This document shows, piece after piece, positions 42,944-44,868 of a DNA stretch of 64,000 bases (positions within the stretch are counted from its first letter, which is position 1; the number at the start of each line of letters is the position of its first letter). The notes under the pieces were generated by a model. The model was not told the origin of the DNA. It saw only the letters and a list, made by a program, of their open reading frames with translations, and made no database searches. Both the position numbers and the translations under genes were made by a program. Source of the DNA: Halobacterium rubrum (GTDB taxonomy: Archaea > Halobacteriota > Halobacteria > Halobacteriales > Halobacteriaceae); the NCBI RefSeq assembly GCF_021729015.1, contig NZ_JAJQQZ010000001.1, positions 868,001 to 932,000 of the forward strand. Direction: 5' to 3'.

Positions 42944-44410
42944 TCAGAAGAACTCGTCGAGACCGCGCTGGCTCTCGTCGTCGCCGGAATCGCGGTCCTC
43001 GCTCGCGGCCTCGTCTTCGTCGTCCTGATCGACGAGCACGTCCTGCCCGTCATCGTCCCCGTCGGCGTCGTCTCCGCCGTCGTCGCTCTCGCTCAGAGTC
43101 GCGCCCTCGAAGGCGCCGCCGGAGTGGTCGACGGCCGCCTCCTCCCGGAGTTCCTCGGCGTCAGCGACGATGGATTCCACCTTGTTCGTCGTCTCCCCGG
43201 AGCCCGTGACGAACGAGACGTGTTCCTCCTGCATGTCGTAGGCGGCCGTCATCGCCACCGTCAGCTCCCGGTTCTTGCAGTGGTGGGTCATCGCCGCGAG
43301 GAACGGCAACACGTCGTTGCGCGCCGTCGCCATGCTGCAGCCCGCGGTCTCGGCGATGTGGCGGGCGACGTAGTCGCGCTTCTCCCGGGTCGCCCGCGAA
43401 CTCCCGAGCTTCCGCCAGTAGCTCGGCGGGCCGTAGCGCGTCCAGCCGCCGTGGTCGTGCTGGCGCGAGGCTGCGACGCCCGCCGCGATGTTGTCGGTCG
43501 CGTACCGCCAGTACGAGTAGTTCTGGGTCGCCCGCACCCGGCCGAGCCAGATGTCGGCGTTCGACAGGAACTCGTAGGCCACCGCGAGCTCGTCGCCGTA
43601 GTAGTCCTTCGGGACGTTGTCCTCGACCCAGTTCAGGAGGTCGTCCGGCGTTTCGTCGACGTCGTAGGCCGCCTGCAGCGCCTCCTCGGCGCCGTGGGTC
43701 TTGATGAGGCCGTCGAGGAAGTCGAAGACGCCCTCCGACCGGTCGCGCTCCCCCATCACCACGTCGTCCTCGGTGAGTTTGCGGTCGGTCTCCGCGAGCG
43801 CCTGCAGGTCGTTGACCGCCGACCGCAGGTCCCCGGCGTTCTGCTCGGCGATGGCCTTCAACGCGTCCTCGTCGTACTCCACGTCCTCCCGCCGACAGAT
43901 GTCCCGCAGCACCGGGACGATGGAGCGCTTCGAGACGTCCCGGAACTCGATGTCCTGCGTGGCGTTCCGGAGCGTCGAACTCATGTCGTAGTACTCGTTG
44001 GCGACGAGGACGATGGGCTGTGGGGACTCCTTGACGAGTCGCGTGATGGCGGCGCTGCCACCCCTGTCGACGTTCCCGTGGAGGTTGTCCGCCTCGTCCA
44101 GCAGGACGAGCTTCTTCCCGCTGGAGCCGCCGGTGAGCGTCCCGGACTTCGCCGCTTCGCCCGCGACGCGCTCGACCACGTCGGCCGTGCGCTGGTCGCT
44201 GGCGTTCAACTCCACGACGTCCCAGCCGGCGTCGCTCGCGAGCGCGTGCGCCGCCGACGTCTTCCCGACGCCGGGGCTGCCGTGGACGACGACCGCCTCC
44301 CGGTGGTCCTCCCACGTCTCCGCCCACTCCGCCAGCGCGTCGCGGGCCTTGTCGTTGCCGCGCACCTCGGAGAGCGACGACGGACGGTACTTCTCCGTCC
44401 AGTCTACCAT
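42944..44410 (-). CDS. rfcL: Replication factor C large subunit
   Basis: 488 residues, clamp loader that opens PCNA. AAA+ core: WTEKYRPSSLSEVRGN, Walker A HGSPGVGKTSAAHAL (about 43-57), Walker B LVLLDEADNL, sensor 1 IVLVANEYY. The C-terminal collar has YSYWRYATDNIAAGVA. An acidic low-complexity linker ends in QRGLDEFF, a PIP box for PCNA binding. The start at 44410 (ATG) or 44416 (ATG two codons earlier) begins the conserved MVDWTEKYRP. An open frame continues upstream to 44785, but this is the palindrome array, not protein. Confidence 0.96.
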   Translation of the reverse strand: MVDWTEKYRPSSLSEVRGNDKARDALAEWAETWEDHREAVVVHGSPGVGKTSAAHALASDAGWDVVELNASDQRTADVVERVAGEAAKSGTLTGGSSGKKLVLLDEADNLHGNVDRGGSAAITRLVKESPQPIVLVANEYYDMSSTLRNATQDIEFRDVSKRSIVPVLRDICRREDVEYDEDALKAIAEQNAGDLRSAVNDLQALAETDRKLTEDDVVMGERDRSEGVFDFLDGLIKTHGAEEALQAAYDVDETPDDLLNWVEDNVPKDYYGDELAVAYEFLSNADIWLGRVRATQNYSYWRYATDNIAAGVAASRQHDHGGWTRYGPPSYWRKLGSSRATREKRDYVARHIAETAGCSMATARNDVLPFLAAMTHHCKNRELTVAMTAAYDMQEEHVSFVTGSGETTNKVESIVADAEELREEAAVDHSGGAFEGATLSESDDGGDDADGDDDGQDVLVDQDDEDEAASEDRDSGDDESQRGLDEFF

Positions 44411-44868
44411 TGGCATCCGGTAGGGAGGAGTTCCGGTTAGGTGTTGCGGAGCGCGTGGCCGAGCGAAGCGAGGCCACGTTATCGTGAGCGGCGACCACCG
44501 GGAGCCGCGAACAGCGTTCCCGAGCAGCGCGAGGGAACGAGGCGGAGCGGGGAGCGCAGCGACCCGCGGAGCGCGTGCTCGACCGAAGGGAGAGCACGGT
44601 ATGGTGAGCGGGGAGCGCAGCGACCCGCGAACAGCGTTCCCGAACGGAGTGAGGGAACGGGCCGGACGAACGGCGAGCGTAGTGAGCCGTGAGGAGCGCG
44701 TGGCCGAGCAAAGCGAGGCCACGTTAGAGCGAGCGGGGAGCGCAGCGACCCGCGAGCCGCGTGGGGACGACTGGAGGGAGAGCACGTTGGAGCGAGCACA
44801 CCCCGACTTCCGGGGAAGCCGTCGAGTCAGCCCGTACAGTTTTGCGGTGTGGCGTGGTACGTGTGTCC
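44411..44868. other. Non-coding region carrying the GA-palindrome array
   Basis: Holds the array (44454-44753). A degenerate copy follows to about 44786, and a plain spacer of about 80 bases lies before the pyridoxamine-oxidase-like gene. Long open frames here arise from the biased composition and are not believed to be genes. Confidence 0.7.
44454..44753 (+). repeat. Array of ten interrupted palindromes with GA...GA cores
   Basis: Ten units, each with 5-7 base complementary arms and exactly 11 bases between. Unit spans are 44454-44478, 44488-44508, 44515-44539, 44547-44567, 44574-44598, 44608-44628, 44635-44659, 44670-44690, 44699-44723 and 44733-44753. Arm types are CGTGGCC (twice), CGTTCCC (twice), GCGGG (three times), CGTGCTC, GCGGC and ACGGC. 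Long-arm and short-arm units alternate, giving about five dimers of roughly 61 bases. All ten cores start GA and end GA; core positions 3 and 9 are complementary (one G/T) and 4 and 8 are always C and G, around a three-base loop that is GNA in seven of ten. Confidence 0.85.

Follow-up and report, generated by a model that had tools for sequence, protein, structure and literature searches.

A strand-specific GA-core palindromic repeat of haloarchaea, clustered upstream of rfcL and probably insertion-competent

Introduction

Interspersed palindromes of the REP and RPE type are well described in bacteria. REP and BIME sequences are short, high-copy, mostly extragenic stem-loops that occur as dimers and mosaics (PMC3733652), and the palindromic repeats called Rickettsia palindromic elements (RPE) sit in frame within conserved genes that are unrelated to one another (PMC10969869). 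Among haloarchaea, Haloquadratum carries PATEs, MITEs and SMRs, transposase-free mobile repeats of which some contain palindromes (PMC3119063). At the level of the single hairpin, the C-GNA-G loop with its closing pair is needed in phage N4 for extrusion at physiological supercoiling (PMC4496689), and the telomere hairpins of Streptomyces are capped by GNA loops (PMC7205883).

The locus considered here is an array of palindromes with a GA-ended core, located upstream of rfcL in a Halobacterium-like genome. It is one cluster of palindromic DNA repeats of haloarchaea that are probably non-autonomous and insertion-competent, arranged here in tandem and mobilised by a putative enzyme acting in trans.

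Results

The host genome (G000) is 3.07 Mb in size, and the window, the whole stretch of 64,000 nucleotides that was analysed, contains the array between two divergent genes. On the minus strand, rfcL codes for the 488-aa large subunit of replication factor C (42944-44410) and finds its best matches in Halobacterium species (78-83%); on the plus strand, gene prediction and a domain match identify a member of the Pyridox_ox_2 family (PF12900, 44869-45315). The rfcL gene lies outside the element and its closeness to the array is incidental.

A computational scan recovers on the plus strand, at 44454-44753, the same ten GA-core palindromes that an earlier sequence-only reading had described, with agreement in arms, core ends, inner pairs and loops. 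Their perfect arms measure 7, 5, 7, 5, 7, 5, 7, 5, 7 and 5 bases, and all ten cores have 11 bases with GA at both ends; core positions 4 and 8 are C/G throughout, while positions 3 and 9 are complementary in nine units and G/T in one. The long-arm units are unit 1 (CGTGGCC GAGCGAAGCGA GGCCACG, 44454-44478), unit 3 (CGTTCCC GAGCAGCGCGA GGGAACG, 44515-44539), unit 5 (CGTGCTC GACCGAAGGGA GAGCACG, 44574-44598), unit 7 (CGTTCCC GAACGGAGTGA GGGAACG, 44635-44659) and unit 9 (CGTGGCC GAGCAAAGCGA GGCCACG, 44699-44723). The short-arm units are unit 2 (GCGGC GACCACCGGGA GCCGC, 44488-44508), units 4, 6 and 10, which share GCGGG GAGCGCAGCGA CCCGC (44547-44567, 44608-44628 and 44733-44753), and unit 8 (ACGGC GAGCGTAGTGA GCCGT, 44670-44690), the one with G/T at positions 3 and 9. 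On their outer side, 5-bp arms are flanked by a further GA/GA pair (16 cases in the host DNA scanned), as seen in units 2, 6, 8 and 10, the exception being one short array unit with GA/GG as its outer bases. From unit 1 to unit 10 the loops read GAA, ACC, AGC, GCA, GAA, GCA, GGA, GTA, AAA and GCA, which makes seven of ten GNA; ANC loops (ACC, AGC, AAC) are a minority beside GNA.

Core-to-core spacings of 32, 29, 30, 29, 32, 29, 33, 31 and 32, close to 32 + 29, together with the alternation of long and short arms, define a dimer repeat of about 61 bp, in line with the dimers seen before. The intergenic region (44411-44868) holds ten units on the plus and none on the minus strand, so that the one-strandedness noticed earlier stands, and 2000 dinucleotide-preserving shuffles of it give a mean of 0.0125 units and a maximum of one. 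The comparison with shuffled controls that the sequence-only reading had proposed thus yields a large excess at the array, and the family-wide test is likewise positive. Immediately downstream, a degenerate eleventh unit (CGTGGGGAC GACTGGAGGGA GAGCACG, 44760-44786, plus strand, read directly) keeps the outer CGTG/CACG and appears to be a decayed long unit. The left boundary, GGTTAGGTGTTGCGG (44436-44450), is conserved in the sister species G004, where an array is present, and in H. salinarum, where it is absent; the right boundary, CAGTTTTGC (44836-44844), is conserved in the same two and is likely a promoter element of the plus-strand gene.

The minus-strand reading frame of rfcL stays open through the array (44411-44785), and an automatic start call could therefore add a false N-terminal extension of 125 residues. 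In Halospeciosus flavus, the full-length rfcL relative is encoded at three loci, of which one is chromosomal and two lie on a plasmid (L033, L034, L035).

Family statistics come from 1.6 Mb of the host genome, namely contig C1 in full and 220 kb of C2, with gene boundaries taken from the gene predictions of this analysis. Palindromes with GA at both loop ends show a sharp peak at a loop length of 11, with 67 having arms of at least 6. Most other lengths give 5-14 such palindromes, and 25 are seen at lengths 14 and 17, which fall in the same codon phase. When the paired C-GNA-G core is examined with all 256 flanking dinucleotide pairs, GA/GA alone is strongly tied to complementary arms (73/132 versus a background of 3%). 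Counts of the exact core (GAGCGNAGCGAG), which exceed those of the reversed pattern about two-fold, were replaced by these arm-aware tests.

Among 43 distinct units, 99.3% of the pair cells are standard pairs, and changes on both sides of a pair affect 123 cells as compared with 34.8 after shuffling and 15-22 with the partner slid. The covariation in other copies that the sequence-only reading had called for is likewise seen at positions 3/9, which are GC, AT, CG or GT in 160/160 perfect-arm units from three genomes. Arm mismatches are more often G.T than A.C (30 versus 9 in 1145 cells), which supports the GA strand, the plus strand at the array, as the one that folds. Tandem sheared G.A pairs in DNA follow a Py-GA-Pu rule, and in about 80% (host) to 95% of units a pyrimidine stands 5' of the first GA, a preference that fits; by analogy with known DNA structures, the GA/GA step would pair in the sheared G.A form.

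Adjacent units lie on the same strand in 73 and on opposite strands in 11 cases, forming head-to-tail dimers with spacings of 32/29 or 28, and unit strands are mixed along contig C1, as was checked with regard to replication-strand bias. Most GNA-type units of the host (62/76) are located between predicted genes, with similar proportions in G009 and G057. Uninterrupted intergenic hairpins of the host (contigs C1 and C2) also favour C-GNA-G triloops, which extends the loop rule beyond the GA-core family. A search of Rfam with the array gave no match.

By covariance-model search, 51 of the 59 haloarchaeal relatives have units, up to 83 per genome; the host has 65, and the other members of the phylum, outside the haloarchaea, have zero to two each. 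A decoy model with GA changed to AG gave three matches of at least about 24.5 bits in 20 genomes (two at 26 and one at 29.1); bit scores were used here as the E-values of the decoy and the R1 model are not comparable, their short calibrations differing about 100-fold. The core statistics are similar in G009, of the same genus, and in G057, of another family. G006 has only three units; upstream of rfcL, its sequence is the same as in H. salinarum DSM 3754. H. salinarum has few sites with units; one of them, on pNRC200 (L398:2321-3023), lies downstream of a TnpB gene at a distance of about 430 bp.

A number of units fall within predicted genes, where the sense strand is mostly the GA strand and reads as an ERSE-like peptide. 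The kae1/tsaD gene (PF00814) of the host contains 57 extra nucleotides, in frame, that hold two units; this insert is missing in the sister species G004 and recurs among 30 genomes only in G011, which belongs to another clade and the nearest relatives of which are without it. The G011 insert has 57 bases at the same codon, 43/57 of them identical to the host and its arms changed, and the shared position and letters would fit a repeated target, interspecies recombination or multiple losses of an old insert. In gpmI (PF06415, PF01676), 60 extra nucleotides are present in the host and G004 and absent from the other 27 genomes aligned. Searched with the array, plasmids of several haloarchaeal genera gave short, partial matches. 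Halomontanus and Salinigranum each have an ERSE-type insert in the same plasmid-borne P-type ATPase gene, at a different place in each, and close homologues are free of the Halomontanus insert.

The rfcL site itself differs between species: between the conserved flanks the host has ten units, G004 an array of different composition and H. salinarum about 20 bp. This suggests that array content turns over fast and that whole dimers come and go. Direct repeats at the gpmI insert are 3-4 bp at most (GGC/GGGC), no obvious target-site duplication flanks the kae1 insert, and no terminal inverted repeat shared by the units was seen, both being features of MITEs; with no clear-cut target-site duplications at these two genes, precise deletion of an older insert is possible at some sites. 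From such presence and absence between species we infer that this dispersed family has moved by insertion.

Further structured repeats were also seen. A tRNA-linked subfamily, most members of which directly follow tRNA genes, comprises an inverted T-arm copy (e.g. GATTTGAACC), AGTCGCAG, a GA hairpin, ACCGTCT and, last, a new copy of the 3' end of the tRNA (GGTTCAAATC...); the inverted repeat appears to match the local tRNA. Its sites are L011:6192, L128:16711, L177:17413 and 17184, L187:11056, L188:14946 and 14821, L189:2107, L194:19814 and L200:12043, with two 125-bp copies in tandem at L188, and from its sequence it looks like a miniature element duplicating tRNA 3' ends. A larger repeat, GCATCCGCG..GGTTCAC..hairpin..GGCCGAGGAACCCCC..GGGGGTGACGACGGCTTTTAGCGTAGCTTTTGCCAG..hairpin..GCAAAAGGTAC, has variable but paired stems and is often located at gene ends; it occurs at 25 sites (including L093:10400-10600, L168:6200-6480 and L116:5850-6000), and no Rfam match was found over the element itself. 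At L181:10755-10960 in G009, a gene 3' end is followed by a T-run, a GA hairpin and an A-run (TTTTTGCGGTGC-core-GCGCCGCAAAAAGG) in a 98-bp tandem repeat that includes the last codons.

Discussion

The mechanism proposed for a family of mobilised DNA hairpins starts from the fold of one strand, which would consist of a variable stem, the tandem GA/GA with its expected sheared G.A pairs, two base pairs and the C-GNA-G triloop. The inserted piece appears as two such units head to tail, a dimer of 57-61 bp. The GA strand would fold when single-stranded by replication or when extruded under negative supercoiling, as the hairpins of phage N4 are, and the folded strand would then be the substrate of the putative mobilising enzyme acting in trans. 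It is proposed that geometry rather than sequence is recognised, which leaves the arms free to vary. Once inserted, dimers may expand and shrink by ordinary tandem recombination, giving the array at rfcL and a different one in the sister species, and insertions would persist between genes or in genes that tolerate a hydrophilic ERSE-like sense peptide. Any advantage for the host is unproven and would be secondary; buffering of torsion between the diverging promoters of rfcL and the Pyridox_ox_2 gene is one example.

As tandem GA and stem covariation are typical RNA traits, the units might instead act as RNA hairpins, be it as terminators, in 3'-end protection or as sites for a protein such as L7Ae, which likes G.A pairs. 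Some copies (in Haloferax and in TTTTAGCGTAGCTTTT composites) do adjoin T-runs at gene ends, and some hairpins of H. volcanii precede transcript ends (PMC7237163). However, the sense bias expected of such a role is absent, as tandem gaps of three genomes contain 23 sense versus 34 antisense clusters (those of the host counted by hand), and T-runs within 70 nt of units occur at the expected frequency, 13 downstream and 8 upstream with about 9 expected. Both divergent genes have conserved promoter-like ends, and the array at rfcL is situated outside them; it has no Rfam match. Loop preference points the same way: C-GNA-G, favoured in DNA, accounts for 38/118 (32%) of intergenic versus 64/803 of coding hairpins with three-base loops, while the RNA-favoured C(TTCG)G does not occur (0/310) and GNRA tetraloops stay at background. 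The lack of orientation bias, the triloop enrichment, the missing RNA-type tetraloops and the G.T asymmetry favour folding as single-stranded DNA, and an RNA role is improbable. An intrinsic terminator was rejected as a general explanation, there being no overall sense bias and no excess of T-runs; single copies do fit one. The single-strand hairpin family put forward by the sequence-only reading is carried by the excess, the covariation and the one-strand sense, but draws no support from nearest-neighbour DNA energies, which barely separate GA cores from AG decoys; with these energies uninformative, the extra stability of GA cores rests on published DNA structure work. Recognition by a nuclease, a recombinase or a replication protein, as that reading suggested, is a conjecture.

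Three further readings were considered. The units could be a neutral by-product, tandem duplication and hairpin-templated repair (quasi-palindrome correction) maintaining complementary arms without recognition or function. Near-perfect arms with few wobble intermediates, the 30 G.T in 1145 cells, are what one-step copying from arm to arm would give, and arrays change fast; yet the retention of GA/GA, sole among 256 pairs, in dozens of genomes and the clean whole-dimer inserts in kae1 and gpmI would stay unexplained, which makes this reading slightly less credible still than an RNA role. That the units are REP/BIME repeats moved by a Y1 transposase (RAYT, IS200/IS605), or PATE relics of IS605-type transposons, is suggested by the common habit of short extragenic palindromes, dimers and mosaics and by the occurrence of PATEs in Haloquadratum (PMC3119063). 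The host, however, has 65 units and no PF01797 gene, and gene and unit numbers do not track each other (0 genes and 70 units in G057, 2 genes and 3 units in G006), so that the mobiliser is not a resident Y1 transposase. Among 12 Y1 loci surveyed in relatives, TnpB-only elements lying outside the survey, one has a unit and none the composite motif; REP tags are rare beside 225 units (GTAG at 5/225, CGTC at 10/225 on the 5' and 17/225 on the 3' side) and the dimers are head-to-tail, all of which leaves a REP or PATE origin unlikely to a marked degree. Least plausible is a primary role in DNA topology, by which hairpin extrusion under negative supercoiling would absorb or report torsion between genes. 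Its appeal lies in the analogy with N4, where C-GNA-G is the loop rule for the extrusion of promoter hairpins (PMC4496689), and in the position of the array between divergent promoters; against it, units are common in convergent gaps too, where they are denser per kb in the host than in divergent gaps, they also lie inside genes, and the H. salinarum-like G006 manages with about three.

With respect to its meaning, a non-autonomous repeat of this kind might, in its widest and decidedly tentative form, represent mobile archaeal DNA that moves as a folded single strand, is recognised by shape (the sheared G.A step and the GNA triloop) by an enzyme other than Y1, and supplies small in-frame protein insertions in most haloarchaea. 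The strict structural rule is in agreement with laboratory studies of ultra-stable DNA mini-hairpins and offers natural sequence evidence for a single-strand DNA shape that is conserved while its sequence is free, and the search for the responsible enzyme becomes a concrete task. Annotators may note that ERSE-type low-complexity peptides and extended starts in haloarchaeal proteins can be a GA-hairpin element. No account of the GA-core family was found in the open-access literature, and as that was the scope of the search, novelty is provisional.

Compared with the described systems, the units resemble RPE in being inserted in frame in conserved genes, namely kae1 and gpmI, for which relatives have empty sites, and an ATPase. 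They differ from RPE in being archaeal, in their unit of two hairpins, where the GA/GA and C-GNA-G core is fixed and the stems vary freely, and in insert size, 57-61 bp versus about 150 bp, a distinction drawn by description. With REP/BIME they share high copy number and a mainly extragenic location (62/76 in the host), whereas REP dimers are mostly head-to-head and the haloarchaeal units head-to-tail (73 versus 11), REP are linked to RAYT and the host has no PF01797 match, and the strand-specific GA core is a feature of the haloarchaeal units. PATEs carry IS605-like termini, while the present units consist of two small hairpins and accompany one of 12 Y1 loci. The logic of the GNA triloop, present in seven of the ten array units, is that of N4 and Streptomyces, but the N4 hairpins are promoters and those of Streptomyces chromosome ends, in contrast to dispersed repeats with an additional tandem GA/GA step. 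On the best reading, the units come closest in behaviour to REP/BIME and to RPE, with a distinct hairpin design.
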